Under the pieces are notes generated by a model. The model saw only the letters and a list, made by a program, of their open reading frames with translations. It ran no database searches and was not told the origin of the DNA. Positions 134 through 16,885 of a DNA stretch of 64,000 nucleotides are shown here, piece after piece. Made by a program: the position numbers and the translations under genes. The DNA lies in NCBI RefSeq assembly GCF_002208115.1, contig NZ_CP020946.1:930001-994000 (forward strand), read 5' to 3'. The number at the start of each line of letters is the position of its first letter. The stretch's first letter is position 1. This DNA comes from Bdellovibrio bacteriovorus. GTDB taxonomy: Bacteria; Bdellovibrionota; Bdellovibrionia; Bdellovibrionales; Bdellovibrionaceae.

Positions 134-265
134 CTTCTTGTGGTTTCTTAAAGGGCTGAAATCTAGTTGATGAATTCTTAATTCTGATGCGCTGGAATGC
201 TGTTGTGTGAGGTGGGGAGCCTCGGATAAACCCTGATGTTGGTCAACAACAACAGGGGGTTCGCC

Positions 266-841
266 ATGGCGGCACTCAAAAAGGTTCTGATTTCAGCCTT
301 TATTACTGGTCACATCGTGATGATGATCACAGCGGCACTGCCGGACCGCAGTGCCGTCGGGGACCGCATCCTGCAGGCCCTGTCGCCTTATCAGGTTTTC
401 TTCGGATTGGATCAGCCCTGGAGCATGTTTGCTCCCAATCCTGCATCAGTAAATTCTTACTTAACTGCGACAATCACATTCAAAGATGGCTCGACCGAAC
501 AGTGGACCTTCCCGAGGGCTTCGCAGTTGGACAGCTGGGACCGTTTCACAGCGGGTGAACGCTATCGCAAGTATCAGCAGGATAATCTTCTGCCGATGGA
601 AAAATCAGAACTGTGGTTTGATTTGTCCCGTTATGTGGCGCGCGAAGTGGCCAAGTTGGAACAACTGGGTCGCAAGCGTGAGTTTGAACAGCTATATTTC
701 TATCGTCACACCAATACTGTACAGCCGCCGACCCAGGTGTTTATACCGCATGGACAGATGAGCACGGCCTACACCAGCGAAAGTGTTTTCCACTTTAAAC
801 CCACCGGAGGACCTCGTTATGAAGCTAACAACTCTCACTAG
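266..841 (+). CDS. HTTM-associated companion protein (DUF5819-like), copy A
   Basis: This 191-residue protein has one N-terminal hydrophobic segment (about residues 5-25), suggesting a membrane-anchored or exported protein. The conserved motif QPWSMFAPNP follows at about 50-60, then a mostly beta region with charged and aromatic residues. From memory, proteins with a W-x-x-FAPNP motif are often encoded beside HTTM-domain membrane proteins (DUF5819-like), which fits the next gene. An upstream in-frame ATG at 236 exists, but the G-rich ribosome binding site before 266 favours the later start. The 3' end overlaps the next gene by 23 bases, so translation is probably coupled. A paralogue lies at 2728-3342 in inverted orientation. 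The biochemical role is unknown. Confidence 0.75.
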   Translation: MAALKKVLISAFITGHIVMMITAALPDRSAVGDRILQALSPYQVFFGLDQPWSMFAPNPASVNSYLTATITFKDGSTEQWTFPRASQLDSWDRFTAGERYRKYQQDNLLPMEKSELWFDLSRYVAREVAKLEQLGRKREFEQLYFYRHTNTVQPPTQVFIPHGQMSTAYTSESVFHFKPTGGPRYEANNSH

Positions 842-1772
842 TGGATTGAATGAATTTTTCTTTAAGCCCCAGCCGGTGCATACCGTGGCGTTGCTGCGAG
901 TATTGTTCGGAGTCGTTTTGCTGATCAATTGGTTTATGGTGTGGAACCATCTGGACACGTTCTGGGGAGTTGAAGGGATCTTCTCTTTGGAAAGCGCTTT
1001 AAAGATGGGGAGCGCCTTCCGCTTTAGTTTGTTTGAACTGTTACCACCGGATCCGCGGGTGCCGGCGCTGCTGGCCCTGGTTCATTTGGGGGCGGTGATC
1101 GGGGTGCTATTCGGGCTTTTCACCCGCACCTCCATTGCGGTGGCATTTTTCACGCTGATTTCGTTTCATAACCGCAACGTCTTTGTTCTGAACAGCTCTG
1201 ACATTGTGATCCGCAATTTTCTGTTTTTGTTGTTCCTGACTCCTTGTGGGGACTGGTTGTCGGTGGATCGCTGGTGGCAGGTGCGACGGGGGCTGGCGCC
1301 GGAAGAACCGGTGGATAAAGCGCCATGGGGGCTGCGTTTGATGCAGATTCAGTTCAGTATCATTTACATTGCCACGGTGATGTTCAAAATGAAGGGGGCT
1401 TTGTGGGCGGACGGGACGGCAGTATACGTTGCGACCCGTCTGGATGAATTCGTGCGCATGCCATTGGGTTTGCTGAACAATCTGCTGGTGATCAAGTTTT
1501 TGACCTGGTCGACCTTGGCGGTGGAGCTGGCTTTGGGGACTCTGATCTGGATTCGAGAACTGCGCTACTGGGTGTTGCTGGCCGGTGTGGGTTTGCACCT
1601 GGGAATCGAGCTTTCAATGAATATTCCGATGTTTGAATGGATCATGATTATAGTGATGATCTGCATGGTGGACCCAGAAGATATGAAAGACTGGCTGACA
1701 CTGGCGAAAGAGGGAAGATTGTTTTCAAGTATTTTGTCCTGGAGACCGCCGATACTGGCCAAAGTTAAATAA
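819..1772 (+). CDS. HTTM-domain membrane protein (vitamin K-dependent gamma-carboxylase-like), copy A
   Basis: This 317-residue integral membrane protein has the HTTM layout. An N-terminal amphipathic stretch (FFFKPQPVHTVALLRV) is followed by several hydrophobic segments, and an IQFSIIYIATVMFK segment leads to a WADGTAVY motif near residues 180-205. K190 sits where gamma-glutamyl carboxylases have their catalytic-base lysine region. A GLHLGIELSMNIPMFEW segment follows near 255-275. The start at 819 is chosen because GGAGGA lies 7 bases upstream; the GTG at 783 has no such site. It overlaps the companion gene by 23 bases. Bacterial HTTM proteins are usually of unknown substrate, so carboxylation is family-based inference only. 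A clear terminator follows the stop codon. Confidence 0.85.
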   Translation: MKLTTLTSGLNEFFFKPQPVHTVALLRVLFGVVLLINWFMVWNHLDTFWGVEGIFSLESALKMGSAFRFSLFELLPPDPRVPALLALVHLGAVIGVLFGLFTRTSIAVAFFTLISFHNRNVFVLNSSDIVIRNFLFLLFLTPCGDWLSVDRWWQVRRGLAPEEPVDKAPWGLRLMQIQFSIIYIATVMFKMKGALWADGTAVYVATRLDEFVRMPLGLLNNLLVIKFLTWSTLAVELALGTLIWIRELRYWVLLAGVGLHLGIELSMNIPMFEWIMIIVMICMVDPEDMKDWLTLAKEGRLFSSILSWRPPILAKVK

Positions 1773-1775
1773 ATA

Positions 1776-1807
1776 AAAAAGCCGCTGGTTGCAGCGGCTT
1801 TTTTTGT
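1776..1807. terminator. bidirectional intrinsic terminator between two HTTM genes
   Basis: A perfect 7-bp stem, GCCGCTG with CAGCGGC and loop GTTG (1781-1798), is flanked by a run of A on the left and a run of T on the right. It can therefore stop the rightward HTTM gene ending at 1772 and the leftward one ending at 1815. Confidence 0.9.
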
Positions 1808-1814
1808 ATCCTAG

Positions 1815-2753
1815 TTATGTTGTTGCTGGTTCGGGATGTTTTGTGCGGGACCTGCGGTATTCCTGAAGCTTTTGAATCCATCGGTCGATGTCCCGGGAAT
1901 CCACCATGCTGATCATGACCACAATCATCGCCCATTCAAAAACCGGAATGGACATTGTGAACTCAATTCCCAGATGCAGGCCGACTCCAGCCAGCAGCAC
2001 CCAGTAGCGCAGTTCCTTCACCCACACCAGAGTTCCCAGGGCAAATTCAACAAGCAAGGTCGACCAGGTGATGTATTTGATCAGGACCATATTGTTCAGA
2101 ATTGGCAGTTCAAAACGGACAAAATCATCCAGGCGCGTGGCGATATAGACAGCGGTGCCATCAACCCAGCGGTCGCCTTTGATTTTGAATAACACCGTGG
2201 CTATATAAATGATGCAGAACTGAATCTGAATCATGCGTAAGGCCCAAGGCGCTTTTTCTGCTGGAACCTCAGGGGCTTTGCCTTTTAGGCGCAGTCGCCA
2301 GCGGTCGATGGAAAAAGCGTCACCAGACGGGGTGAACAGAAGCAGGAACAAGAAAACTCTTAAGACAGAGTCTGCACTGTTCATGATAAAACCGTTACGG
2401 TGATGAAATGAAGTCAAGGTGACAAAGGCAATTAGAATGGACATCCTTGTCCACGCGCCGAATGTCAAAGCTAGGACGGCCAGCAGATGCACGAAGGCAA
2501 TTGTGGCTGTGACTTTGTACGAGTTCGGCATGTAGTCAAATAAAGAAAAACGCAGGGGATTACCGTACTGCTGCGCAGTTTGCAATGACACAATTCCATC
2601 GGGTCCAAAAAGAACTTCCAGATCCGTATATATCATCAGCCAATTGAACAGCAGAATCAGTCCCAAGCCAATTCGCAGCAGGGCGACGCTATAGACTGGT
2701 TGCGGTTTGAACAGAAACTCATCAACGCTATTGGCGATTGTTCGTAGCTTCAT
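1815..2753 (-). CDS. HTTM-domain membrane protein, copy B (inverted paralogue)
   Basis: This 312-residue protein is clearly paralogous to the HTTM protein at 819-1772. It shares the FKPQPVYSVALLRIG start, the TSFHHRNGFIMNSAD segment, the IQFCIIYIATVLFKIKG helix with the corresponding lysine, the W-x-DGTAVYIATRLDDF motif and the GLHLGIEFTMSIPVFEW segment. The ATG at 2753 has an AAAGG-type ribosome binding site; a longer in-frame extension to 2798 overlaps the upstream gene further and lacks one. The start lies 26 bases inside the companion gene, reproducing the architecture of copy A. Transcription converges on the terminator at 1776-1807. Substrate unknown. Confidence 0.85.
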   Translation of the reverse strand: MKLRTIANSVDEFLFKPQPVYSVALLRIGLGLILLFNWLMIYTDLEVLFGPDGIVSLQTAQQYGNPLRFSLFDYMPNSYKVTATIAFVHLLAVLALTFGAWTRMSILIAFVTLTSFHHRNGFIMNSADSVLRVFLFLLLFTPSGDAFSIDRWRLRLKGKAPEVPAEKAPWALRMIQIQFCIIYIATVLFKIKGDRWVDGTAVYIATRLDDFVRFELPILNNMVLIKYITWSTLLVEFALGTLVWVKELRYWVLLAGVGLHLGIEFTMSIPVFEWAMIVVMISMVDSRDIDRWIQKLQEYRRSRTKHPEPATT

Positions 2754-3342
2754 GGCGAATCCTTTCAAAGGTCGGGGTGTAAACGAAGATCGTTTCAATG
2801 TCGTATTTGCTGCTCAGGGTGCCATGTGGAATCAGTGGGGCCTCTGGCGGAGGAGCGACTCGGCTCTGATATCGTTTGAAGGATATTTCCTTCAGGATGC
2901 GGTTCTTGCCGGTGCTTTCGGCCTGCATCACTTCTCGAGTCACAAAGCGGGAGACATCGAACCAGACAAGCTCGTTTTGATTTGGTAGCAGGGTCTCTTG
3001 GCCTAGTAGGCGATAGCGGTCTCCGGTCAAAACTTTACGGGGGCCATTGATATTCAGAGGGCGAGGCATCTTCCAAACACCTGTGGAGCCGTCGTCGAAT
3101 TTAAGGTCGGCTTCGATGAACGCATTGGTGTTCATTGGATTCGGAGCAAACATCGCCCAGGGTTGATAGAGCATAACCAGTGCTTGATAACGTTTCACAA
3201 ACGACATGAAGCGTTCTCCCAATTTGCTCTGATCGGGCAGGCCGTCAACGACCATGATGCCCACATTCAGGGTGAAGAAGCTCATGATGATGATTTTTTT
3301 TGACTGATTGAATGCAAATTGCATCTTTTCTTTCAGTGTCAC
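2728..3342 (-). CDS. HTTM-associated companion protein (DUF5819-like), copy B
   Basis: This protein of about 205 residues is paralogous to the one at 266-841: a short basic N-terminus, one hydrophobic segment (about residues 15-40), the motif QPWAMFAPNP, the strand LKFDDGSTGVWKMPRP, and ELVWFDVSRFVTREV. The frame stays open upstream to a TTG at 3504. The GTG at 3342 is preferred because AGGAG lies 8 bases upstream and it gives a length like the paralogue (191 aa). An ATG at 3324 is the alternative. It overlaps the downstream HTTM gene by 26 bases. Function unknown; context says it works with the HTTM protein. Confidence 0.7.
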   Translation of the reverse strand: MTLKEKMQFAFNQSKKIIIMSFFTLNVGIMVVDGLPDQSKLGERFMSFVKRYQALVMLYQPWAMFAPNPMNTNAFIEADLKFDDGSTGVWKMPRPLNINGPRKVLTGDRYRLLGQETLLPNQNELVWFDVSRFVTREVMQAESTGKNRILKEISFKRYQSRVAPPPEAPLIPHGTLSSKYDIETIFVYTPTFERIRHEATNNRQ

Positions 3343-3657
3343 TGTTTTTTCTCCTGTGGAGGATCCGTCCTTAAATGATATTTGCATATGGTTCTTAACA
3401 TAGAATTCTCGGAATAGTTCTTTACGCTTTTGCAAGTTTCTGAAGGTCAGCTTCCCAATTCTGCGAAGTCTGCAATGCTGATTAACATACTTTGGAAGTG
3501 TCAATTAAATGGCTGAAATTATGATTTATTTAAGTGTCAAAAATATTTTCTGCGTTCTAAAAATTCTGTCAGCTCGAAGAAAAAATTAACCGGTCGTTGT
3601 CTGTAGCGGTGGATGTCTTCCATTGCCGCGGGCGAGGGCTGCAAAAAGGAGAATGCA
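3343..3657. other. divergent intergenic region between the HTTM module and the secreted repeat-protein gene
   Basis: This gap of about 315 bases separates divergent genes. It is AT-rich in the middle. The 9-base word AAGTGTCAA occurs twice as a direct repeat (about 3495-3503 and 3532-3540). A weak promoter-like pair, TGTCAA and TAAAAA separated by 17 bases, lies at about 3535-3563 on the plus strand. A leftward open frame at 3537-3761 lies antisense to the next gene and I do not regard it as coding. Confidence 0.45.
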
Positions 3658-6438
3658 ATGGGTGGGATGTCTGGGAAAGTGATTTTCCTGGCGGGGATGT
3701 CGATGATTGCAAACGTCGCGTTTGCAAATAAACCGACAAATAATACCGTCAAGAAAGACACGCAGGTAATTGAAGTTGGGGGCCGCGGAGGATTTGTAAA
3801 TCTTAACTCTAAGGTTATTCAGGCTGTTGGGAACAACGGTAACAATGGCAACAGTGGAGTTGTCGGAAATAACGGTATTGTTGGCAGCAGCGGCAACAAC
3901 GGTAACAATGGCAATAATGGACTTGCCGGAAATAACGGTATCGTTGGCAGCAGCGGTAACAACGGCAATAATGGTAATAACGGAATTGTCGGGAATAACG
4001 GTATTGTCGGTAGCAGTGGCAACAACGGCAATAACGGAAATAACGGAAATAACGGTAACAATGCCGTCCTAGGAAACAACGGGGTTCTTGGAAGTAGCGG
4101 GAACAACGGAAGTAACGGTAATAACGGTAACAACGGTAATAACGGAGTTATCGGGAACAACGGTATTGTTGGTAACAACGGCAACAACGGCAACAACGGC
4201 AATAACGGCGGCAATAACGGCAATAACGGCAATAACGGCAACAACGGAAACAACGGAAACAACGGAAACAATGGCCATAACGGTCACAACGGGCACAAAG
4301 GTACCACCACGGGATATAGCACCGGCTATACAACGGGTTATACGACGGGTTACACCACGGGCTATACCACCGGTTATACGTCAACTGGTTATACGTCTAC
4401 AGGCTACTCCACTGGGTACACAACGGCGACGACTTACGGTCCGACGACCAGTGTAACGACTGCCACCACTTACAATCCTGACACGGCAACCACAGTAACG
4501 ACGGCAACGTCTACTTCTGTGACTACATCCACGACAGGTGAAGTGACGACGTCTTCCAGCTCGTCCAGTTCTTCCACGTCTTCAACTTCTACTTCCACGA
4601 CCGGAGAGTCCACGGCGACATCCTCCAGTTCGACTGGATTCAAAGAAGAAGAGAAAAATAAACTGCGGGCGAAATTGAAGCCTCTGTTCCACCTGAGCTT
4701 CGATTACGGTCAGTACATCGTGAATCTGACTCCGCACTTCAGAAATGTGCAACCGGCGTCCATCGTAAAGTATGACTACCGTCCAACTTCCGATACGCTG
4801 ATTTACGGCGATTATCGTGACGGTTTCCAAAAAACTGTTTACGGTGCTATCGAAGTGGGTCTGGGTGCGCAGGTGCGTTTCTGGTTCGACAATGCGACAG
4901 GTTTGCGTCAGCACTTCTGGGGCTATGTCGGCGTTCTGCCAATCATGGGTAAAGAGACAGAGTCTGTTCGCTATGTGAGCACTCTGGACAAAGCCCGTAA
5001 TATGGGTGGTCGCTGGTCTGTTCCAAAAGACGCCGCGGATCTGGACACGTGGGATCCAGGTGACAGCATCACTTACATCGGTCACGGTGGAATCATCTTC
5101 TCTGCAGGCGCGGGCTTCGGTCCGGTGGGTGCAGGGGTTGCAAAACTGGCGAACGGTACGTGGGAAACTTACGTGGAAAAAGTCGGTTCGGACCGTGCCT
5201 ACGTAAAAATGTCCAAAGGTAAGCTGAACAGCTTCTCGATGTTCACGAATGTGTCCATCCTGACGTTGAGCTTGAGTGAGTTCAGATCTTCCGATGACGG
5301 ATTCTCCTTCTTGTTCGATTTGACGACCGATACTGGCCGCAAAGCATACGAAGACGTGATCCGCGGAAACGTTTTGGCTTCAGAAACTCTGTCAGCCGAC
5401 AAACCACGAAACTTGGTTGAGCGTGCTCCAGTTGTTAAGGTTGAAACATTCAGATCTGTGGCGACGGGCCGTGTTGTCAGCAAGTCTTTGGCTTTGCCAA
5501 TCATTTGGGACAAAACGTACAGCAAGGGTAAGATCAACTCTTACACCACATCTGAAATGCATTTGGATCGCAACACTGCCGTTGTTCACTACGGAATCTA
5601 CTCTGATTCTGAAGACAGCCGCTTCTGGTTCAAGCATAAAGAAAAAGACTTCATGTTCTATGGTGCCAAGTATTCTGTTGAAAACTGGGATAGCAAAGCG
5701 CGCATGGAAAGCATGTTTGGTACTTATTCTTATGCCTTCAAGCACGAAAGCTCCAACGGCAAACGTCTAAGATCCGGTATCTATGCTTTGGTTAAGAAAA
5801 CCGGCTTGGATTCCCTGATGGTGGGCGTGCCTGATGCAGATTTGGGTTACACCGGCATTGAGTTCAACGTGAACTTCAGTGACGAAAACACCATGAGACT
5901 GATGAGAGCGGCTCAGAGCATGAGTCAGGATGCCTTCATCGACAAGTCCACGGATCAGATCTATTCCTACTTCAACGAGCGCAATGATCCTTACGATCTG
6001 TGCATGATGGATAGTGGAGCACGTCTTCCGGGTTCTTGCGTGAACGTCACGACCAAGAAAACGGCCGAGGCCGCAAGCAAAATGTACTATGCTTTGAAGA
6101 CCATGTATAAAACGATGAACTCCGATCCTAAGGCGTTTGCCGCCGCTTACGGCGCATTCGGTGAAGGTATGGCAGAGAATCTGTTCACATTCCGTGCGGC
6201 GATGTCCATTGCGGGTGCGGGCACCACAATCGACTATCTGGTTGAAGGTACTCACATCAATATGTACTTCCGTGAATGGATGGTGGATGGTTCCGGACGC
6301 TGGGTGCCTGCAGTTCAATCTCCGAACTACAAAGGTCTTCCATTCCAGCCGGCAACTCGTCACTCGAAAGTGCGCGGTATGATCATCGGAAATTCCGATG
6401 CAGGAAAAATTCCGCACATGATGCCAGTCACTTTCTAA
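3658..6438 (+). CDS. large secreted repeat protein: Gly-X-Y (GNN) stalk, TGY repeats, Ser/Thr linker and C-terminal domain
   Basis: 926 residues. The ATG at 3658 is chosen because AAGGAG lies just upstream; the frame opens at 3613 without a site. A signal peptide ending in the NVAFANK region spans about residues 1-24. Residues 58-215 form an almost uninterrupted Gly-X-Y array dominated by GNN, with GIV, GSS, GVL and a final GHN block. It has a single Gly-to-Ala position and one extra Gly. Nine TGY units follow (about 218-254), then about 70 residues rich in Ser and Thr. From about residue 330 there is a 600-residue soluble domain I do not recognise; it has two cysteines close together near residue 790. 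The gene is the first of seven consecutive genes for exported proteins. The stalk suggests an extended surface or periplasmic filament bearing a C-terminal head, by inference. No family identified. Confidence 0.85.
3829..4302 (+). repeat. in-frame 9-base (GNN codon) tandem repeat array
   Basis: The DNA behind the Gly-X-Y stalk is a degenerate 9-bp period (GG-N AA-Y AA-Y) over about 470 bases. Interspersed units encode GIV, GSS and GVL. Copy-number change by whole units would keep the frame, so the stalk length could vary between strains. Confidence 0.85.
4309..4419 (+). repeat. tandem Thr-Gly-Tyr repeat (9 units)
   Basis: Nine TGY tripeptides are spaced by one or two Ser/Thr residues ([13 protein letters not shown]). 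They lie directly after the GHN/GHK end of the Gly-X-Y stalk and before the Ser/Thr-rich linker. Confidence 0.85.
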
Positions 6439-6464
6439 CCCCGGGTTAGAGAAGTGTTCTCGCA

Positions 6465-6504
6465 AAAGGCCGTTGGTGAACACCAGCGGCCTTTCCTTTT
6501 TTTT
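6465..6504 (+). terminator. intrinsic terminator after the GNN-repeat gene
   Basis: A 14-bp stem (AAAGGCCGTTGGTG with CACCAGCGGCCTTT, one G-U pair) with a two-base loop is followed by CC and eight T. It separates the repeat-protein gene from the next six genes, so these probably start from their own promoter. Confidence 0.9.
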
Positions 6505-6639
6505 CGTCGAACATTTCTGATTGATAATTACATTCTCTTTAATTGCGGATCTGTAGTTTGAATTTCCTTTTGCCAGGTTGGTAAAAAATATTTCGCACCA
6601 AAAAAACAAATTCCAATCAAGGAATGGGAAAGGGAAGTT

Positions 6640-7170
6640 ATGAAACTCAAGGCGCTTCTTGCGGGAGTTTTGTTGGCGACAACAATGCAGGCGACTGCGA
6701 ATGAATTCGATGATGGCACTGGAGAATTCGATCCACGCCCGCTTCCTCAATATTCTGAAGCAGAGCTGCAGAAGAAAATTGAGAATGAGATGGCGATCGC
6801 CTGTTCAGGCAATCTTTGTAAGATCGTCGGCCAGGACAGCAGTGGTTCCGGATGGACCGTGCAGTTTCAGGTCGGTTACGGACGCGCCAATGGGGGCGAC
6901 GGGGATACCATCTACATCGGCGACTATGACAACGGCAATAACAACAGTAACGGCTACGCAAACATCACTGTGACATACAAGAACTACAAGTGCCGTTCCA
7001 ATCTGCTGGTTACGCCGGCGGTATATCGTTTTGTAAATACCTACCTGTACAACATGGTGAACTCCGATGGTTCTGTGAAGAGAAACTTCTCTCCAGCGGA
7101 TCAGACGGTGGTTTTGTTCTATACAACCATGCTGAACAAAGTCAGCTCATGTGGCAGCGGTCTTAACTAG
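6640..7170 (+). CDS. small secreted protein of unknown function
   Basis: 176 residues with a clear signal peptide (MKLKALLAGVLLATTMQATA). The mature part begins acidic (EFDDGTGEFD) and has a central Gly/Asn/Asp-rich stretch with GDYDNGNNNSNG. It has four cysteines: a close pair at ACSGNLCK, then single ones in YKCRSN and SSCGSG. This fits a disulphide-stabilised periplasmic or surface protein. The ATG follows AGGGAAGTT. It sits 9 bases before the next gene, and the following five genes run the same way. I recognise no family. Confidence 0.75.
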   Translation: MKLKALLAGVLLATTMQATANEFDDGTGEFDPRPLPQYSEAELQKKIENEMAIACSGNLCKIVGQDSSGSGWTVQFQVGYGRANGGDGDTIYIGDYDNGNNNSNGYANITVTYKNYKCRSNLLVTPAVYRFVNTYLYNMVNSDGSVKRNFSPADQTVVLFYTTMLNKVSSCGSGLN

Positions 7171-7179
7171 AGGTCTTAA

Positions 7180-9924
7180 ATGAATAATGCAGGGTCTATG
7201 GGCAAAACCGTGTTGATGGCAGTGATCTGGATGATGGCGATGGGTGCTGAGGCACAAACGACGGCCACCTCCCAGGCACAGTTGAATAAGTTGAGAATTA
7301 CGAATCGCGCGCAATGCGCCGTAGACTCTGAGATTCCGACCGAGTCCGCTTTTATTGTGGTGGACGGGTACAATGCCGGAAAGATGGTATATTCCCTTGG
7401 TAAAAATATCGGCTCCAATGCCGAGGCGATGAGTGCCGAGGGTATGCAGCAGTTTCGGATTGCGGTGACCCGTCTTACTAAAGTGATCATGAACAAGCTG
7501 ATGGCCGGACAGCTTCCGCTTCTTCCGACCAACCTTAAAACGTCATCTTTGACTGGCTATAACGCCATCGCTGAAAAATGTCAGAACAAGACCTACTGCC
7601 CCGAGCTGAATGGTTATCTTTCCAAGTTGTGGGATAATTCTGAAGGGGCGGGATTGCGCTGGGAAAGTCTTGATAAATTCAACGGCACCCACTTTATGTC
7701 GATGAAAAAGACCGACCGGGTTGCCTGCTTCTATGTAAAAAGATTCTCGGCTCTTCAGGAGCAGTTGAATTCCGTTGAAGTGGACAAGTCAGTCCTTTTG
7801 TCAGTGGCTCAAGCTGCACTGGCCAGAGAAAAGTATATCACAGACTGTGAAAGTGCTGATGCGACCCTGGATTCGCGTAACTCAATTATCCAGCTTGATT
7901 TGAAAATTCCCCGGGCGGTGGACTTCGCCTCGGTCGGATTCGATTTCTGGAATAGTGTAAAAATCTATCTTTCTTTTGCCTGGAGATATTCCAATATTCC
8001 ACTTCAAGTGGCACCGGAGTACGGTCAGATGTTCCGTTCCATCGCCCTTGAAGAGTCCATTATGATGATTCCCAACGGCTGTAAAAGCATTGAGAAGCCC
8101 GAATGTGACGCCGCCACTTTGTCAATGAACAGCATTCGCGAGCTGGCCCGTCCCGACGGCAATGAAACTGAGCATCGCAAAGAAGTTCCCAAAGGCCCTG
8201 AAGACGATGTCGTCAACCGCGGCCCTCGTGATGTTAATGACGACTTCCTGGGGACACGCAGCTATGAAGATGCTTCTGACTGGGTTGAAAACTTCCGTAA
8301 GAACTATGTGACGGCGCGCGGATCCATGAAAAACCGTGTGCAAAGTGCGATTCAGTTTCTGAGCATCGTGGCGGGGGCGATGACTCCGGCAGAGCTGGGC
8401 GAGTTCGTAAAACCACTGGCTTTTGCCAAGAGTTATTCCAACCAGCACCGCGACGAACTTTACTACCTCTGCACGGAAGCCCGTCTGGCCGGGGATCAGC
8501 GCCTGGACTTTATGAAAACCGGCATTGATAAGGTTCAGCAACTGGATGTCATGCAGCGTTCTTTCCACGGCTCTCAGGTTCAGTTGGCAGATGCGACTCG
8601 ATATTTTGATAAAGTCAGCGAAACAGTGGTTGCGTTCTGCGACTCCCTAGAGCGAGAGAAAATCTGGAATGTGGCTGGTTACACCGTGAACAGAAGTGGT
8701 TTCCACGCCTGGGCACGTGAACTTTTGGGTGTGGCTCCTCCGGCGACGATTGCGGCCGATATTCAGCCGATGAAGTTTGGGGCCCCGTTGCTGGTGTGGG
8801 ATGCCACTCGCGCCAGTGATCCCGGGAACTCTATTTGTGCTTCGGCGATCGACTGCACCCGTCGTCTTATCAAGTCCATGGTGGATCTTTATGCTGTGGC
8901 GAAATATGCGGATGCATTCCTTCCGGTGAATTCGACAGTTTCCACTCCGGACGTCTTTAATCCTTATGCCGATTTGAAAGCATGTAAAGTTTATGATCCA
9001 TGGTATCAGACCCGTCGTGCAAACAAACGCCTGATGGCTGATTTGGCTAGCACGGCCCTGTTTGGCTGGAATGCTTTGCCACTTTATTTGGATGTGGACT
9101 TCAAACCACCGAAAGTCACAAGCCTCAATGCGATGATCAAAAATGGAGCGGTGAAGTTTGATCCAAAAATCCAGAAAGAAAAAATGGAAATGGCCTTACT
9201 GGCGGACTTCGGTCCCTTGATGGGGGCGCCGTGTGCGGTGTCAATTGCACCCAACAGTGCCAAAGATTTCAGTTTCTATGCCTTCAACGGAATTTCCGTA
9301 AATTATTGTAAAATTCGCGACAATGGGACCACGATAGGTGAATCCAACGGAGGGCTGCAGACCAGTCCGACCGTCAGCAAGTCTTATTGCGGTGGTTGCT
9401 CCATTAACTTCGTAGGTGTTGCGGGGGGGGCGGCCGTTTCCACGGGTGGTCTGCCTCTGAATCCGATCAAACTGGGCGTATACCTGTTCCGCAGTATTCA
9501 TCGCTATATCACTGCCAAGAAAGACAAGGTTAATATTCCTCGTCTGCAGGAAGTGGACGTAAACCGGGTCGTGGAGACCTATAAAAAGTACGGCACCATC
9601 CCGGATCACTGCGTGGATCAGTTGGCCGCCGGAGTCGGCTGCTATCAGAACGTCTGCGCCGCAAAAGCTGCTGATTACTTCGAAAGATACACAGGTAAGA
9701 AAGTGAAGCATCTCGAGCTGGAAGAGCTGACGGATGCCAACGGCAATACCACACCATCTTCTGCGGTGATCATCCAGTCTGACTATTGTAACGGCAAAGT
9801 GCGCGTCAAATACAGTTGTTCAGAGGACGGGAAGAAATTCAAAACATATGAAAAATTCGGTGGCATGTACGGCATGAGCAAAGACTGTCGTCAGACCATC
9901 GGTCACAACTTCTGGGGCTTCTAG
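7180..9924 (+). CDS. large secreted cysteine-containing protein of unknown function
   Basis: 914 residues. An N-terminal signal (VLMAVIWMMAMGAEAQ) implies export. The rest is a large soluble protein with more than twenty cysteines, including SYCGGC near 730 and a Cys-rich C-terminal segment (DHCVDQ, GCYQNVC, YCNGK, YSCSEDG). A charged, Pro/Asp-rich linker near 345-370 may separate an N-terminal and a C-terminal half. TAGAGG lies just before the ATG at 7180; an internal ATG at 7198 is a possible alternative. The TAG stop shares its G with the GTG start of the next gene, so translation is coupled. No catalytic motif or family recognised. Confidence 0.8.
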   Translation: MNNAGSMGKTVLMAVIWMMAMGAEAQTTATSQAQLNKLRITNRAQCAVDSEIPTESAFIVVDGYNAGKMVYSLGKNIGSNAEAMSAEGMQQFRIAVTRLTKVIMNKLMAGQLPLLPTNLKTSSLTGYNAIAEKCQNKTYCPELNGYLSKLWDNSEGAGLRWESLDKFNGTHFMSMKKTDRVACFYVKRFSALQEQLNSVEVDKSVLLSVAQAALAREKYITDCESADATLDSRNSIIQLDLKIPRAVDFASVGFDFWNSVKIYLSFAWRYSNIPLQVAPEYGQMFRSIALEESIMMIPNGCKSIEKPECDAATLSMNSIRELARPDGNETEHRKEVPKGPEDDVVNRGPRDVNDDFLGTRSYEDASDWVENFRKNYVTARGSMKNRVQSAIQFLSIVAGAMTPAELGEFVKPLAFAKSYSNQHRDELYYLCTEARLAGDQRLDFMKTGIDKVQQLDVMQRSFHGSQVQLADATRYFDKVSETVVAFCDSLEREKIWNVAGYTVNRSGFHAWARELLGVAPPATIAADIQPMKFGAPLLVWDATRASDPGNSICASAIDCTRRLIKSMVDLYAVAKYADAFLPVNSTVSTPDVFNPYADLKACKVYDPWYQTRRANKRLMADLASTALFGWNALPLYLDVDFKPPKVTSLNAMIKNGAVKFDPKIQKEKMEMALLADFGPLMGAPCAVSIAPNSAKDFSFYAFNGISVNYCKIRDNGTTIGESNGGLQTSPTVSKSYCGGCSINFVGVAGGAAVSTGGLPLNPIKLGVYLFRSIHRYITAKKDKVNIPRLQEVDVNRVVETYKKYGTIPDHCVDQLAAGVGCYQNVCAAKAADYFERYTGKKVKHLELEELTDANGNTTPSSAVIIQSDYCNGKVRVKYSCSEDGKKFKTYEKFGGMYGMSKDCRQTIGHNFWGF

Positions 9925-10526
9925 TGAAAAAGTGGATTGGAACCATCACGACATTGATTCTGCTTCAGCCAATTTTCGCTCAAGCATTTTTGGTGGAAAG
10001 CACCTATATAAAACAACCCGGAGGCCAATATGCCAAGATGACCAAAGTCACTTGCGACACGGCATCTTCGGGGGACTGCCAAAGTCTTTGCCAGAATGCG
10101 ACGGCTTGCCAACGGCCGGAGCCGTACTGTCGTAACTGTGCGGGCACAACATCGCCGTTACTGCGTCAGCTCTTCACGGAAATTTCCCGAGTGTATGCCA
10201 TTTCGCGGGAAGTGAACGACCGCAAGGATCTGGTTCGGTTCCTGGGGACTGAGAAGTACGTAATGCTGGATTTAAAAAGTGTCTTTAACTACTACAGCCC
10301 GGTCGGCGGGGACGCCTTTACCAAGGAACTTCGCTTTTTCTGTGGAGAGACCGGAGAAAACACCCTGCTTGCCGTAAAGCTGGATGAAGTTCATCAGCCG
10401 GTTGCACTGAGCTACGTGCTTTGTCGCAACAATGTGGGCCAGACCTCTGCCTTTGAGGTGCAGCCTCGACAGCCAGGATTTGGTCAGCGTCCTTTGAGTG
10501 CACCACTTATTTTTAAAATGAACTGA
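9924..10526 (+). CDS. small secreted Cys-rich protein
   Basis: 200 residues, GTG start overlapping the previous TAG by one base. A signal peptide (MKKWIGTITTLILLQPIFAQA) is followed by a compact Cys-rich segment of seven cysteines: TCDTASSGDC, LCQNATAC, YCRNC. A mixed alpha/beta region follows with two more cysteines (FFCGE, VLCRN). The cysteine-dense knot suggests a disulphide-rich extracytoplasmic domain. Coupling to the 914-residue protein suggests they act together. Family not recognised. Confidence 0.75.
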   Translation: MKKWIGTITTLILLQPIFAQAFLVESTYIKQPGGQYAKMTKVTCDTASSGDCQSLCQNATACQRPEPYCRNCAGTTSPLLRQLFTEISRVYAISREVNDRKDLVRFLGTEKYVMLDLKSVFNYYSPVGGDAFTKELRFFCGETGENTLLAVKLDEVHQPVALSYVLCRNNVGQTSAFEVQPRQPGFGQRPLSAPLIFKMN

Positions 10527-10572
10527 TTTATCAGTTTACTACAACAACACCCTTAAATGGGAAGGAGACAAC

Positions 10573-11853
10573 ATGAAACGTTTGTTAAAAGCGATGGCTA
10601 CGACAGCCGTCACCTTGGTGGCGATGCAGGCAAACGCCATCCAGGTCAACTATAGTTTCCGAGTGAACAGCTCGGGTCCAAGCATCTATCCCTGTAACGC
10701 GGGTTTGCTGACAAAAGGCGACACCTACGGCGATAAAAAGATCTGTTACTACGAAGGCACAAACACGGCGTGTACGCCTAAGTGTGATGGCTTGGATTGC
10801 GAAGGCGGCTCTAAGCCAACACCGCAATTCATCCAGAACCTGGCTACCTGGTCCAACACACCGTTGAATACCAAGTCTGCGTGTGAAGCTGCAGGCCGTA
10901 ACTGGATTAGCACGCCGACTCACGCAAGCAACGTACCTCCGGGTGTTCTTGGTTCTGAAAAAGACCAGGCCGGTCCAGGTAAATTCGTATACTGCGACAT
11001 CACTTGTAAAACATCTGGTCACACGTTCAACTCTCAGGACAGAACTTGTTCCAACCCAGGTGGCGGCAACAATGGTGGCAACGGCAACACTTGCGTATGC
11101 TCCACTCAAGAAGGTCGTAAGTTCGGTAACTACGTTCATGCAAGCTGGACTAAGTGGGAAGACCGTCAAGATCCTCACACTGACAAAGTTTCCGGCATCA
11201 GCCCTTACTTCGCGACTCTATTCGGTGAAGTTGATGCGTTCGACAGAGTATTGGATAAATTGTCCTTCAACCTGGGCAGTGAAACATACAATGCGGCATA
11301 CTTCGTGGATATCTGCTACCGCGGTTCTCAGATTGACTACAGCCACTACAAAGCGGCTTACAAAGTCATCGCTGAAGCTTCTTTGACAGACATCGGTCAC
11401 AAGTACAACGGTAAAGGTTACAGCGACTTCGCGGACCTTGAAGTTCAAGCACACTTGATCTGTACTTCTCAGACTCAAAACTGTGAAAACGGCAACTGCA
11501 GCGACACTGATGAGCATCCAAACGGAAGCAACACTCCTCAGTTCGACAATGACATCACTGACATTGACGATCCAGTAAGCAATCACACTAAGTATCTTGC
11601 TGGTGATATCAAGGATTTGATCAGCGGCGCGAACTTCGTGCAGACGATCGATAAGAACACTCCGATCTATCTTGATAAGTACAACAAAGGTGCAGCAGCG
11701 AAATTCTGTAAAGTTCGCTACATCTTCAAGGAAAAAGACGGTCTGGGTCACTATCCTAAACTGCGCAAATGGCAAAAACACGGTGCAAACATCTGCACTC
11801 ACACGAAAATCGAAATGGCAGATCTTGATGGAAACTGCCCTAACTGCAAATAG
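10573..11853 (+). CDS. secreted Cys-rich protein, paralogue of the gene at 13476
   Basis: 426 residues with a strong ribosome binding site (GGAAGGAG) before the ATG and a signal peptide ending near QANA. The N-terminal half holds cysteine motifs (CKPKC-like spacing in TACTPKCDGLDC) and a Gly/Asn linker near 165-175. Residues from about 175 to the end resemble the 288-residue product of 13461-14327: LSFNLGSETYNAAYFVDICYRGS here matches LEVQLGSEILGAEYGFTYCYKGP there, and KFCKVRYIFKEKDG matches RFCVVEVRFKERSG. A polar linker with CENGNCSD splits the two matching blocks. Codon choice (AAC, GGT, CGT) suggests good expression. Function unknown; probably a disulphide-bonded structural or binding protein of this operon. 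Confidence 0.8.
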   Translation: MKRLLKAMATTAVTLVAMQANAIQVNYSFRVNSSGPSIYPCNAGLLTKGDTYGDKKICYYEGTNTACTPKCDGLDCEGGSKPTPQFIQNLATWSNTPLNTKSACEAAGRNWISTPTHASNVPPGVLGSEKDQAGPGKFVYCDITCKTSGHTFNSQDRTCSNPGGGNNGGNGNTCVCSTQEGRKFGNYVHASWTKWEDRQDPHTDKVSGISPYFATLFGEVDAFDRVLDKLSFNLGSETYNAAYFVDICYRGSQIDYSHYKAAYKVIAEASLTDIGHKYNGKGYSDFADLEVQAHLICTSQTQNCENGNCSDTDEHPNGSNTPQFDNDITDIDDPVSNHTKYLAGDIKDLISGANFVQTIDKNTPIYLDKYNKGAAAKFCKVRYIFKEKDGLGHYPKLRKWQKHGANICTHTKIEMADLDGNCPNCK

Positions 11854-11878
11854 CTAATTGATATCAGAAGGAACAGAT

Positions 11879-13471
11879 ATGACTAAAATTGGTGGTTCTA
11901 TGAAAAATGAGTTACGGATCTTGGGACGTCTGCTCCTTCTGATTGTATCTTTGACTATGGCAGAATCCGTTCACGCATCCGGTGGATGCGTGGCCGATAC
12001 GGATGAAAAGATCGAGATTCAAATCTCCCCGGCGAACCAAAGCTGGGGAGATTACACCGGCCGACAGTTGATTCCGTCCACCCTGGTGGACAAGTGCGAA
12101 AAGGATGCGGGTCGCTTTTTAATGATCTCCTTGGGCTCGGCGTTTTGGGATACAACCAACACGGGCATTAATACCAGTATCTTTGGTGATCATGCGGCAA
12201 GAAATTGCAGTATCAATAACTCCCACGTCTTGGGAGATTTTAAGCAGGGCAGGGCCACGGCCAGTCTACTGCGTCAGTACAAGTTTATCAGATCATGCTT
12301 TGACGTCCGTGTAGTTGACGTCGGTGGTGAACCTATCATTGCCAAAGAAAATCAGGAGTTCTGCCAGGTTCGTCGTGAAGAGGACGGAGCGGTCACCTTG
12401 ATTGGCGATATGTGCTTCTTAAAGGTTCGCGGCAGAAATAAATTTGCAATTCAACCGGTTTTCAAGGGCAAGTGCCTTGAGCCATCCTATCTTCAGGAAC
12501 TGGGAATCGAACCCCAGGACATGTATGCAAAACTAAATACTTTGATTGCTGGTGATGATACCGGAAACAGTCAGGACCTGACTCATATCGGCAGCCGACT
12601 GCTTCATTTGAATATTGCGCCAGATTCGAAAACTTTGAAATTGACAGAGGACTACGGTCCCATGACCCCGCGATTTGTCACAGACTACAGTGTCGAATCG
12701 GACATTTCTGATATCGAAATCAAGCAGCAGTCCGACACCTCAGAGCTGCAGCTCAAATTCCTGGTGTCCAACTTCGCCCCGGAAAAGTGCGTGGGGAATG
12801 AGTGCGCCAGCGCCTCGAACTATACCCAGCCCTTCTTCGGTCAAGTGGAGCTTTATCAGGTCGGAAAGAACAAGCAGACTTTGATTGATGAATGGTGGGA
12901 CGGGGGCCTGGTGCCGCCAAACTGGCAGGGGGTGGTGCCTGGGATGAAATTCAGATTGTCCGAAGGGCCCTTGGTAAAAGGGGGCCGCTACAAAATTGTC
13001 GTGACGATGCAGAATCCAACGGATGACTATTCTATTTTCCTGAGTGGCTTCAGACAAATGCTTCTGAATATGTACGCCACGGAGGATGCCGAGGTGGGGA
13101 TCGATATTTTCCCTAATATCTCGTCTTTGAGCAATCTCGGTGTTTTGCCTTCATTTGGCGGCGTGGGTTCTTTGGTCCGTCACAATCAGGGCGTGGCCCT
13201 GGGGGAAATCGTTCGCGGTTTGGATGGCATTATCAAGAGCCAAATATGGCCTCCGTATTATGACCGTGTTTGCGACGATGAATCCAGTTGCCTGAAGGTC
13301 GGCAACAAGAAATTTCACCAGAAATACGTCGTGGAGTTTGTTGTTGGGGAAAAGGATCTCGATACCGGTGCGCAGAAGCTGCTGAACCTGTCTATTTCCA
13401 AAAGAAGTGTTCTGGGTGGAAATTACGACAATAAGACCAGCGGCTTTGCCACCTTGACGTGTGAAAGATAG
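11879..13471 (+). CDS. secreted protein of unknown function
   Basis: 530 residues. The ATG at 11879 follows AGAAGGA; the frame extends to a TTG at 11858 with no site, and an ATG at 11900 is another option. The signal peptide core is LGRLLLLIVSLTMAESVHA. The mature protein begins GGCVADTDEK and looks mostly beta. Cysteines are scattered (KCEKD, NCSIN, SCFDV, FCQVRR, MCFLKV, KCLEPS, KCVGNEC, VCDDESSC), consistent with several disulphides. It lies 25 bases after the previous gene and 4 before the next. No family or catalytic site recognised. Confidence 0.75.
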   Translation: MTKIGGSMKNELRILGRLLLLIVSLTMAESVHASGGCVADTDEKIEIQISPANQSWGDYTGRQLIPSTLVDKCEKDAGRFLMISLGSAFWDTTNTGINTSIFGDHAARNCSINNSHVLGDFKQGRATASLLRQYKFIRSCFDVRVVDVGGEPIIAKENQEFCQVRREEDGAVTLIGDMCFLKVRGRNKFAIQPVFKGKCLEPSYLQELGIEPQDMYAKLNTLIAGDDTGNSQDLTHIGSRLLHLNIAPDSKTLKLTEDYGPMTPRFVTDYSVESDISDIEIKQQSDTSELQLKFLVSNFAPEKCVGNECASASNYTQPFFGQVELYQVGKNKQTLIDEWWDGGLVPPNWQGVVPGMKFRLSEGPLVKGGRYKIVVTMQNPTDDYSIFLSGFRQMLLNMYATEDAEVGIDIFPNISSLSNLGVLPSFGGVGSLVRHNQGVALGEIVRGLDGIIKSQIWPPYYDRVCDDESSCLKVGNKKFHQKYVVEFVVGEKDLDTGAQKLLNLSISKRSVLGGNYDNKTSGFATLTCER

Positions 13472-13475
13472 AAAT

Positions 13476-14327
13476 ATGAAGAACTTTATGGTCCCTTTGT
13501 TGCTTCTTCTTTTTTCACTGACTGCCGGGGCCAGCACCGGCAGTATTATGGGCTCTTCAGTGAATCCGGTGACGGGTGAAGAACTTTATGCCTGCAATGC
13601 AAAAATCCGCAGTCTTGCTTCATCGGCAGAGCAGATTTGTCTGAACCTCGGTACCGGAGAATCCTGTGATCCGACCCGAGTCGGACCGACGGATGGCCCC
13701 TGTCAGTGTTATTCCAAAGAGATGATTGGCAACCAGATCGTGGCCACTCGATCAGACGGAGCGGCCCAGGCCATTCACAGCACTTCCCAGTGGAAGCAAT
13801 TCGTGGATGACGGCAACTTGTTCAATGGCAAGCTGAACAGTCTGGAAGTGCAGTTGGGAAGCGAGATTCTGGGTGCGGAGTATGGTTTTACCTATTGCTA
13901 CAAAGGGCCTTTCGCGACTTCAGGGAATGATCAGTCTTTGGGGTCTTATGGGCTGGACTTCACTCTGCAGGGAAGCGCTTATGCGGTGGCCTTGGATTCG
14001 GTGGAAATAAAGTATGCGTGCGATCTGAGATATCGTGGGCAGAACGGAAGTCCTCGACAGCCAAATTCCAGTCCTAATTATGGGGACCTTTATTCCGACT
14101 TCGTCCGTACAGAGACGATCTATAAACGGGTGGATGAAAGAAGTCCGAAGGAAATCGGTTATCAGAAGATTAAAATGCTTTTGAATCAGGCAGCGCACGA
14201 AGTCCCACGATTTTGTGTGGTGGAAGTTCGCTTCAAAGAACGTTCGGGCAAGGATCTTAAAAGGGATGCTTTGGCCACGACGTCATTCAATGGAAGTCTG
14301 GCTATTAAAAAACAAGGCTCTATGTGA
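13476..14327 (+). CDS. secreted Cys-containing protein, paralogue of the gene at 10573
   Basis: 283 residues from the ATG at 13476, which starts a clean signal peptide (MKNFMVPLLLLLFSLTAGAS). A GTG at 13461 would overlap the previous gene by 11 bases. The body carries the same two blocks as the C-terminal half of the 426-residue protein: a strand-rich block with LGSEILGAEYGFTYCYKG, and RFCVVEVRFKERSG near the end. This one lacks the long N-terminal half. It is the last gene of the run; its TGA stop lies inside the terminator hairpin. Function unknown. Confidence 0.75.
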   Translation: MKNFMVPLLLLLFSLTAGASTGSIMGSSVNPVTGEELYACNAKIRSLASSAEQICLNLGTGESCDPTRVGPTDGPCQCYSKEMIGNQIVATRSDGAAQAIHSTSQWKQFVDDGNLFNGKLNSLEVQLGSEILGAEYGFTYCYKGPFATSGNDQSLGSYGLDFTLQGSAYAVALDSVEIKYACDLRYRGQNGSPRQPNSSPNYGDLYSDFVRTETIYKRVDERSPKEIGYQKIKMLLNQAAHEVPRFCVVEVRFKERSGKDLKRDALATTSFNGSLAIKKQGSM

Positions 14328-14338
14328 GCCTTGTTTTT
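14307..14338. terminator. bidirectional terminator overlapping the stop codon of the last operon gene
   Basis: The stem AAAACAAGGCTC pairs with GAGCCTTGTTTT around the loop TATGT. It is followed by T on the plus strand and by T on the minus strand. It serves the rightward secreted-protein gene, whose TGA (14325-14327) falls in the loop and right arm, and the leftward acyl-CoA dehydrogenase gene. Confidence 0.9.
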
Positions 14339-14347
14339 CTTTGAACA

Positions 14348-15862
14348 CTATAAATAACTTTTTACTGCAAAGCCTGCTGTCAACTCCGCAATCAGGAATG
14401 CAATGTCTCGCGCATGTGTTTCTTTTTCCTCAAGGTTCAGCGCCATGAGTTTTTTCAGGCGACTGAGTCCTTCCTGATCCGCGGTGGAACGCTCCAGGAA
14501 CTGCTCCAGAATTTGTCCGGCCTGATCCCTTTCAAACGCACGCAGCATATCCAAAGACAGAACGTTCGTGGTGCCTTCCCAGATAGAAAACACCTGCGCA
14601 TCGCGCAGCAGACGGGGAATGCCGGTGTCTTCCACATAACCCGCACCGCCGAACATCTCGACGACCTCGCTGGAGATATGGATGGATTTTTTCGCGGTAT
14701 AAAGTTTCAGAATCGGCGTCAGAACCCGCAGCAGGATTTTTTCAGAAGCAGAAGCTTCGCCCACTTCCTCTTTCCCCAAAAGATTGGCCACAAAGAAGCT
14801 AAAGGCGATGCATTTGCGGAAGTCCGCCTCCAGGGAATCCAAAGTGGACTTGTGCAGGGGATGGTCTTTCAAAAACTTTCCGAACGCCTGGCGTTTGCTG
14901 GAATAGTCTTTAGCCAGATCCAACGCACGTCGCATGTGACCGACAGCGCAGATGGAATTGTAAATGCGCGTGATATTCAAAACACTCGCTATGCGTTTCA
15001 CGCCTTCACCCACACCGCCAATCATGCGGGCCGGTGTTCCCTGCAGGCTCAGCTCTGCGGTTGGCAGGGCCTTGGTGCCCAACTTGTCTTTCAGGCGGTG
15101 AATTTGAATGTGATTCAGCTCGCCTTTGTCATTGCGAAGCTCCAGGAAGAACAGGCTTAAACCGCGGGACCCAGGTGCAGCACCATCCGGACGTGCCAGG
15201 GTCAGGGCCATCTGGGATGTCGTCGCGGAAGTAAACCATTTGGTTCCATGCAGGGAATGGGTCGCGCCAAATTCGCTGGTGCCGGTAAACGGGTGTGCAT
15301 CCGTGGAAGTTCCACTGACATCAGAACCGCCGGTTCTTTCCGTCATCCATTGACCAGCCGTCCAGAATGTTTTTGGATCCCGGGACAGCAGGTGAGGCAG
15401 GACACGGGATTTAAGATCAGGGTCCGCGTAAAGCTCCAGTGCGCGGGCTGCTCCATCGGTCATAGCCAAGGGGCATGAGAAGATCGCCGAGCTTGGGGAA
15501 TACAGATACAGCAACGCCATTTGATAGACGCGGGAAGCAGCTCCAAACCGGCGGTCGTAGGCCGTAGCCACGATGCCTTCTTCGGCGGCGACCTTTTCCA
15601 GAGCCTTCCAGCCGTGAGAGGTGCGGATGTCGTCGATTCTTCGACCCCATGGGTCAAAAGGCACGTGGACGGGTGGTTGGGATTCTGCCTCTTGGGCCCA
15701 AGTCAGCATGTCGGTGACCGCTCGTTCACCCAAGTGTTCAAGGTGAGGAAGAGCCACTTTCTGGGCGTCAGCAGGTAAGAGGGACTTCAGGATCTTTTGA
15801 AGTGTTTCGTCGGAGCGGAACGTGTTCGAAAGCTGGGGACCGTCTTGGTAAAAGTTTTTCAT
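14348..15862 (-). CDS. AidB-like acyl-CoA dehydrogenase
   Basis: 504 residues, cytoplasmic flavoprotein of the acyl-CoA dehydrogenase superfamily. The N-terminal helical region has the AidB-type FDPWGRRID motif. The middle domain has FWTAGQWMTERTGGSDVSGT, the flavin-binding loop typical of AidB relatives. The C-terminal helical domain has SSKRQAFGK and FGGAGYVEDTGI, then FSIWEGTTNV, whose Glu is at the position of the MCAD catalytic base. The length fits AidB-type enzymes rather than classic 380-residue ones. E. coli AidB binds DNA and is linked to alkylation response; whether this one does beta-oxidation or protection cannot be told. The start has no good ribosome binding site, but a promoter lies 7 bases upstream. 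Confidence 0.88.
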   Translation of the reverse strand: MKNFYQDGPQLSNTFRSDETLQKILKSLLPADAQKVALPHLEHLGERAVTDMLTWAQEAESQPPVHVPFDPWGRRIDDIRTSHGWKALEKVAAEEGIVATAYDRRFGAASRVYQMALLYLYSPSSAIFSCPLAMTDGAARALELYADPDLKSRVLPHLLSRDPKTFWTAGQWMTERTGGSDVSGTSTDAHPFTGTSEFGATHSLHGTKWFTSATTSQMALTLARPDGAAPGSRGLSLFFLELRNDKGELNHIQIHRLKDKLGTKALPTAELSLQGTPARMIGGVGEGVKRIASVLNITRIYNSICAVGHMRRALDLAKDYSSKRQAFGKFLKDHPLHKSTLDSLEADFRKCIAFSFFVANLLGKEEVGEASASEKILLRVLTPILKLYTAKKSIHISSEVVEMFGGAGYVEDTGIPRLLRDAQVFSIWEGTTNVLSLDMLRAFERDQAGQILEQFLERSTADQEGLSRLKKLMALNLEEKETHARDIAFLIAELTAGFAVKSYL

Positions 15863-15897: not shown

Positions 15898-15934
15898 GAA
15901 CATGTCGGTCACCCCGCCTTTTTTTAAAAAAGTG

Positions 15935-15963
15935 TTGCCGTTTGGTAAGGTCCTACATATAAG
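15935..15963 (+). promoter_or_regulatory. predicted sigma-70 promoter of the lipoprotein protease gene
   Basis: TTGCCG (15935-15940), a 17-base spacer and TATAAG (15958-15963). It lies inside the open frame that begins at ATG 15902, which argues that translation really starts at the TTG at 15989. Confidence 0.75.
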
Positions 15964-15988
15964 AGCCGCTCTTTTGGGGGAGGCACAT

Positions 15989-16885
15989 TTGAATCGTATT
16001 CTATTGGCATTGGTGGCCATTGTTTTGGCTTCCTGTGGACTTTCTAATCGTCCTCAGGTGAATACCAAGGATTCCGCGGGTATTATGGGCGGCACTTTGG
16101 TGGCGGAAAACGCGAAAATCGCATCCGGAATTGTTGGGATCATGGACTTGCAGTCCAATTCCATCTGCACAGGTTCCATTATCGCTGAAAACTATATTTT
16201 GACGGCTGCTCACTGTGTGATCGGTCTGAAGCCAAGCAAACTGCGTTTGATCTTCGGTTTGGATGTGGATGAGCTGATGGGCGCCCGCGAACAGGACATC
16301 GTTCAGATGTACACTCGCTCGGTGTCTGACTATAAAATCCATTCCAGCTACAACGAAGTGGATCAGGAAGAAAAAGAGACTGACTGGGGTGACATCGCTT
16401 TGATCAAGTTCCACGGTGCTTTGCCTCCGGGCTACAAGCCGGTTCAAATGCTGAAGGATGATACGATCCTGCGTCGTGGTTTGACGGTGACTTTGGCGGG
16501 TTATGGCGTTTCTCAGGTGGATACAGAGCCTGTGGATGCAAGAAAAGTCAAAAATCTGGATGAGGCCCTGGAATATGGCGAAATCATCTGCGATGAAGAC
16601 CTGAAGAACTGCCTGAAAGTGGACATGTCCGGTGACGGCGTTTTGCGCCAAACCAAAGCTCCGATTTCTTCTGTTCAGGAAACAGAAGTGCGTCTGGATG
16701 AATCCAAAGGTTCCGGCACTTGCGCTGGGGATTCTGGTGGTCCGGCTTATGTGGACATCAAAGGTGAGCTGTTCTTGTTCGGCGTTACCAGCCGTGGCAG
16801 CGCTCTGTGTGACAGTGTGGGTGTTTACACCAATGCCGTTTACTATGCTGACTGGATCAAGTCCACGATGCCAAAAATGCGATAG
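15989..16885 (+). CDS. trypsin-like serine protease (lipoprotein)
   Basis: 298 residues from TTG 15989, which follows GGGGGAGG. A promoter lies within the longer frame, so the ATG at 15902 is unlikely. The N-terminus NRILLALVAIVLASC is a lipoprotein signal with a lipobox cysteine at 16. An IMGGT activation-like site follows at 32-36. The chymotrypsin-fold triad is visible: H75 in LTAAHC, D135 in DWGDIALIK, S249 in GTCAGDSGGPAY. An insert between about 180 and 225 carries an extra cysteine pair (CDEDLKNC). It is probably anchored in the outer or inner membrane and acts outside the cytoplasm. Predatory bacteria carry many such S1-family proteases, so a role in prey degradation is plausible but inferred. 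Confidence 0.9.
   Translation: MNRILLALVAIVLASCGLSNRPQVNTKDSAGIMGGTLVAENAKIASGIVGIMDLQSNSICTGSIIAENYILTAAHCVIGLKPSKLRLIFGLDVDELMGAREQDIVQMYTRSVSDYKIHSSYNEVDQEEKETDWGDIALIKFHGALPPGYKPVQMLKDDTILRRGLTVTLAGYGVSQVDTEPVDARKVKNLDEALEYGEIICDEDLKNCLKVDMSGDGVLRQTKAPISSVQETEVRLDESKGSGTCAGDSGGPAYVDIKGELFLFGVTSRGSALCDSVGVYTNAVYYADWIKSTMPKMR

Follow-up and report, generated by a model that had tools for sequence, protein, structure and literature searches.

The window analysed here, a stretch of 64,000 nucleotides, comprises bases 930001-994000 of the 3,769,537-base chromosome of Bdellovibrio bacteriovorus SSB218315, which is the published chromosome size of this strain (PMC5941755). Near its left end lie seven consecutive rightward open reading frames with Sec-type N-termini, just where a preliminary description of this DNA had placed them. 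The first (3658-6438, + strand) encodes a collagen-like stalk protein of 926 residues with GNN repeats, and the remaining six, called A to F here and likewise on the + strand, encode exported proteins: A (6640-7170; 176 residues), the most conserved small subunit, with four invariant cysteines; B (7180-9924; 914 residues), a putative core component with 22 conserved cysteines; C (9924-10526; 200 residues), with a GTG start and eight invariant cysteines; D (10573-11853; 426 residues), all-beta in a low-confidence model; E (11879-13471; 530 residues), with 12 conserved cysteines; and F (13476-14327; 283 residues), which is homologous to D. As previously reported, A and B are separated by nine bases and B and C share one base (TAGTG at 9922-9926). 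The C-D gap is 46 bases and the E-F gap four, and D and E are 25 bases apart if E starts at 11879, or 46 if it begins instead at a later ATG, at 11900.

Between the stalk gene and A there is, as had been claimed, an intrinsic terminator (6465-6494, + strand; 13 pairs, -21.9 kcal/mol, z -5.0), which forms the upstream limit of the unit. Its downstream limit is a bidirectional intrinsic terminator at 14308-14338 that overlaps the stop codon of F and is common to F and a converging acyl-CoA dehydrogenase gene; a simple terminator scanner missed this element, which was revealed by its folding energies of -18.7 and -19.7 kcal/mol (z -6.2 and -7.4). Genes A to F (6640-14327) are one operon between these two terminators, and the seven-gene cluster originally described resolves into an independent stalk gene and a unit formed by the remaining six. 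The genes flanking this region encode HTTM proteins, the acyl-CoA dehydrogenase and a trypsin-like protease. HTTM proteins are a family of relatives of the vitamin-K-dependent gamma-carboxylase, and next to the stalk gene (236-3504) two HTTM-domain genes lie in opposite orientations, each paired with a small gene, one of which matches DUF5819 below cut-off. The trypsin-like exported protease (15902-16885, + strand), just beyond the dehydrogenase, has a dN/dS of 0.09-0.15, the highest among the genes compared.

Judged by sequence, A to F represent six protein families unmatched in Pfam, NCBIfam and PHROGs, and no known system was matched. None of the six products scored above cut-off against Pfam or NCBIfam or matched PHROGs at an E of 0.1, nor did any member of the alignments of B, D/F, E and G, a gene found in related loci, exceed the Pfam cut-offs; the same Pfam and NCBIfam searches revealed no catalytic family or motif in A to F, and sequence profiles of B, D and E gave no convincing match to PDB chains. 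The earlier statement that these proteins have no recognisable family thus holds for A to F but not for the stalk, whose repeats match Pfam Collagen (PF01391) at 74.2 bits against a cut-off of 27.2. The AlphaFold2 model of B, built from 31 sequences (mean pLDDT 83.7, pTM 0.80), is a large alpha/beta protein for which no PDB or viral model was matched with an E below 0.001 (best Z 5.7), the matches falling mostly on one helix pair and sheet; lists of structural matches of this kind, for B as for D, do not exclude a family. Since no known family, system or fold was matched (the last in comparisons of the B and D models with PDB and viral structures), A to F are classed as new. Within the set, the two related proteins already noticed are D and F (hhalign probability 99.9%, E 1.3e-34), and no hidden homology was found between D and either E or A.

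Cysteine richness had been attributed to five of the seven proteins, which understates the case: all six A-F proteins contain 2.3-4.5% Cys, and the stalk has only two cysteines. In the family alignments of A, B, C, D, E and F there are, respectively, 4, 22, 8, 10, 12 and 4 columns with at least 90% Cys, an even number in every family, as expected of disulphides, and DsbA-type proteins are encoded in the SSB218315 genome. Nearly all family members, including 19 of 19 for A, begin with a signal-peptide-like segment as called by a simple hydrophobicity rule rather than by SignalP. An internal membrane span occurs in a single D-family member, and no anchor in the form of a lipobox, beta-barrel or membrane span is evident in A to F, so that soluble periplasmic and secreted proteins are equally compatible with the data.

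The six genes travel together. Across 293 Bdellovibrionota genomes, B is found in 63, all of which carry D and 62 of which carry E, and among the other 230 genomes D and E are each found in four, in some cases through weak hits or at the ends of draft contigs. For the co-occurrence of B with D and of B with E, Fisher p is about 1e-57 to 1e-59. Inheritance of B, D and E is in essence all-or-none, and synteny and co-occurrence together show A, B, C, D and E to be encoded together and co-inherited. A genome-wide scan for B by two peptide patterns, by which very distant relatives could be missed, returned 33 loci, all of them in Bdellovibrio, Bdellovibrionales, Bacteriovoracaceae, Halobacteriovorax and the like or in metagenome-assembled genomes named Oligoflexia or Proteobacteria, and found no relatives in other phyla. 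Within the genus Bdellovibrio the block is present in 17 of 24 genomes and absent from seven, so it is accessory and not required for predation as such.

Conserved synteny in relatives, the absence of which the preliminary description had named as a point that would count against it, is found in many of them, far beyond chance: many Bdellovibrionaceae loci repeat the order A-B-C-D-E-F, and G often comes next. Bacteriovoracaceae have the halves swapped, giving D-E-(D/F)-A-B-C; the neighbours there, recognised by eye from sequence, include housekeeping genes such as uvrB, and additional D-like genes occur. The SSB218315 chromosome itself carries a second copy at 3.06 Mb, in the same order, with two further genes, G and H. 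Upstream of this copy (locus L004, 3624-17997) lies a putative aminopeptidase (PF10023) gene, and converging on it downstream are apparent genes for glucose-6-phosphate isomerase, for an FHA-GGDEF protein (dgcB) and for a sigma factor of the RpoE type. For comparison between strains, two genomes of the set (G006 and G002) are presumed to be HD100 and Tiberius. The second copy of HD100 is found beside counterparts, identified by gene content, of pgi (Bd0741), dgcB (Bd0742), the RpoE-like sigma factor gene (Bd0743) and Bd0745. An intact orphan B in the kdesi genome (locus L045, 6150-8918) stands among genes similar to those around a complete block in genome G020, which suggests that all other block genes were lost around a retained B.

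The HD100 counterpart of the flanking acyl-CoA dehydrogenase (93% identical) is assumed to be Bd2924, which PMC6851490 describes as a structure target, and the HD100 block should therefore start at about Bd2925, if the numbering is as we infer. In open-access papers, supplementary tables excepted, the only mention found within Bd292x-293x was Bd2924, and none was found of Bd0746-0751 or Bd075x. No open-access paper was found that names the A-F genes. The module is previously undescribed, and the suggestion of an undescribed exported multi-protein system is supported by its six new families, conserved synteny, all-or-none inheritance and conserved disulphide-type cysteines.

Comparison of strains reveals that the operon is divided into two parts with different histories. 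In global alignments between HD100 and the window, the acyl-CoA dehydrogenase is 93% identical, A 95% and B 92%; C stands at 76%, D at 56%, E at 43% and F at 40%. Nucleotide identity is 82-96% as far as approximately 10700, inside D after some 43 codons, where it falls to about 50% (82 to 52% at the step itself); it recovers (83%) after approximately 14440, the flanks being at 83-94% and the boundaries sharp. The segment exchanged relative to HD100 therefore spans about 10700-14440, running from around the 43rd codon of D to slightly beyond the end of F (limits approximate), such that the first 43 or so codons of D are conserved and the remainder is replaced. Fast evolution of D, E and F was considered in place of exchange and rejected, since the kdesi genome is farther from the window in B (76%) than HD100 is (92%) yet closer in D (88%) and E (81%); its F is 69% identical. 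The E protein of HD100, for its part, is 57-58% identical to those of the more distant genomes G022 and G023 versus 43% to that of the window strain. The B tree groups the window strain with Tiberius and HD100 (100/100), and the D and E trees group it with Tiberius and kdesi (100/100); AU tests reject each constrained alternative (p 2e-38, 4e-10 and 2e-7), and a tree shared by all is rejected. A and B thus follow the flanking genes, and most of D, with E and F, has been exchanged as a sharply bounded cassette.

A second replacement has probably taken place in copy 2 of kdesi. Its E is 33% identical to E of its copy-2 relatives, where a similar divergence of B is accompanied by 65-68%, and its G is 43% identical to theirs; the relatives are 63-70% identical among themselves, and this G is 60% identical to that of another lineage. 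The case is built on these identities and on G, because the copy-2 E tree alone does not reject a species-like grouping of kdesi. Between the window strain and Tiberius, dS amounts to 0.23 for D but to 0.55-0.93 for the other operon genes, which suggests that D itself was exchanged recently. No positive selection was seen in the pairs compared (dN/dS 0.01-0.08), and values low throughout point to allele replacement rather than point-by-point diversification.

How might such an operon work? A constant core joined to an exchanged part, outside the cytoplasm of predators, suggests recognition of a variable partner, and the joint exchange of D, E and F argues that these three proteins work together. 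It is quite possible, and is the reading we prefer, that A to F make up an extracytoplasmic complex with a conserved core, A-B-C, and an exchangeable recognition part, D-E-F. The operon would then serve a disulphide-stabilised multi-protein assembly outside the cytoplasm of predatory Bdellovibrionota, whose components would be exported by means of Sec signal peptides, with DsbA-type enzymes oxidising them. The core would consist of B together with A and C; the related all-beta proteins D and F, together with E, would form the exchangeable part; and the conserved first 43 or so codons of D, which cover the signal peptide and first strand, may tie the variable part to the core. D, E and F would move between strains as one allele block because, we propose, they must fit together and also match an external partner that varies; the likeliest such partner is a structure on the prey surface, a phage or a competitor being the alternatives. 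Physical association, a location at the cell surface (or in the prey compartment) and a role in recognition are all predicted from the genes, and the exchange of the D-E-F cassette favours the last of these; the surface filament or attachment apparatus originally suggested is likewise putative. Speaking against this reading are the low dN/dS, which gives no sign of positive selection on surface residues in the pairs compared, the weak model of D, the lack of an evident anchor and the seven Bdellovibrio genomes that do without the block.

Many relatives' operons add G, in which an Asp-Cys-Ala-Asp motif and a His are invariant across the 13 members aligned (Cys64 and His166). This arrangement resembles papain-like and NlpC-type hydrolases, but G reaches no curated family cut-off, its only matches being weak ones to DUF4846 (best E 5e-4); G could perhaps act in processing or wall remodelling. 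A relative of G lies in the window at 36189-37487 (- strand), far from the block (profile E 1.2e-76), and beside it (37500-38000, - strand) is a gene for an exported protein of 166 residues whose repeats resemble, by eye, a fascin-type beta-trefoil and for which Pfam gives only DUF7910, below cut-off. A different interpretation is that A to F, along with G, enter the prey periplasm as secreted parts of a joint enzyme or binding complex for digestion or wall remodelling, the exchanged cassette then reflecting different prey substrates. It would suit six soluble Sec substrates that lack evident anchors and are limited to a largely predatory phylum, and the many copies accompanied by G with its invariant residues, yet we consider it doubtful, as A to F have no catalytic family or motif, the fold of B has no enzyme match and the operon in the window has no G.

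The homology of the beta proteins D and F, together with the further D-like genes of Bacteriovoracaceae, brings to mind a new fibre or pilus built from D and F as related subunits, with A-B-C as its assembly platform and E as an adapter or tip. The AlphaFold2 model of D is a low-confidence all-beta sandwich (pLDDT 62.9), and its nearest structural neighbours include the adhesins and pilins SdrG, PilB and TasA, the first two being representatives of Gram-positive MSCRAMM adhesins and basal pilins. However, the best of these matches, which are also those that bear on the DEv-IgG domains of MSCRAMM adhesins, has a Z of 4.7 with an rmsd of 4.9 over 122 residues at about 7-10% identity, from a model of pLDDT 63; such values lie within noise, are too low to carry meaning, are explained by a common beta arrangement and are not counted as evidence of membership. 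Pfam finds neither usher nor chaperone genes among A to F of the window, in distinction from a chaperone-usher pilus, and the flanks hold the unrelated HTTM, dehydrogenase and protease genes; sortase and prepilin features are likewise absent, and B is neither a pore nor an usher by any search. A fibre or pilus is thus unlikely.

Somewhat less likely again is a device directed at other predators or at phages, acting in self-recognition, superinfection exclusion or avoidance of phage receptors, with exchange driven by phages or rival Bdellovibrio and not by prey. Such a role would accord with alleles that are replaced in the absence of positive selection, with the uneven occurrence of the block in the genus, and with duplication and partial loss, as in the orphan B of kdesi. 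Against this, Pfam, NCBIfam and PHROGs give no match of A to F to families for toxins, immunity or defence, and no phage homologues were found, B having no homologue in IMG/VR, 50,697 phage records or 72,556 plasmids.

The stalk was part of the apparatus as first conceived, and its own features and distribution bear on that idea. It contains three Gly-X-Y runs of 26, 16 and 10 triplets, and its scores against the curated collagen-like adhesins SclA, SclB and Lcl (58.7, 77.3 and 63.2 bits) fall below the cut-offs of 400, 325 and 500; any likeness of the locus to such adhesins resides in the Gly-X-Y repeats of this neighbour, which lies outside the unit, and not in A to F. The repeat region (3832-4380) is a tandem array with periods of 63, 27, 18, 12 and 9 bases, and the open reading frame varies from about 680 to 1200 codons among species around a conserved C-terminal domain. 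The unique C-terminal part (591 residues) is present in 21 of 24 Bdellovibrio genomes, including six of the seven that have no A-F block. Stalk and block adjoin only in SSB218315, Tiberius, HD100 and kdesi; in G005, G011, G012, G020, G022 and G023 they are at least 80 kb apart. That the stalk and A to F form one apparatus is very improbable and largely refuted by distribution, for even though they are adjacent, on the same strand and all exported in those four genomes, the stalk has its own terminator, occurs without the block and mostly at a distance from it, and is missing from the second A-F copy of the same chromosome.

Returning to the extracytoplasmic complex with an exchangeable recognition part, two parallels come from known predator proteins. 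The mosaic adhesive trimeric (MAT) fibres of Bdellovibrio are single long trimeric beta-helices related to phage tail fibres (PMC10769870). Like D, they are exported predator proteins with a conserved N-terminal and an exchanged C-terminal part, and they are thought to recognise prey (PMC10769870); D, which keeps codons 1-43 and is replaced beyond them, behaves in the manner of a MAT without belonging to that group, since A to F are six separate disulphide-rich proteins with no match to PHROGs phage fibres or to Peptidase_S74. The combination of a constant core and an exchanged part therefore recalls phage tail fibres and MAT fibres by analogy only. The MIDAS-family adhesin Bd0875 of B. bacteriovorus, which is located at the prey interface and needed for invasion (PMC11003981), differs in that Pfam detects no von Willebrand A/MIDAS domain in A to F.

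Overall, the A-F set looks like an exchangeable recognition device. With slightly more reserve than we attach to the complex itself, we suggest that it may represent a new class of predator extracytoplasmic machine, made of six families unrelated to known ones and including a new fold, that of B; its constant core, A-B-C, would carry a horizontally exchanged, strain-specific recognition cassette, D-E-F, that sets what the predator binds or resists. Six families are in any case added to the predatory gene set, one of them confidently modelled yet unmatched among PDB and viral folds. The module, exported and co-inherited and with sharp limits to its exchangeable cassette, offers a concrete candidate for the means by which Bdellovibrio and its relatives distinguish prey and for the differences between strains.
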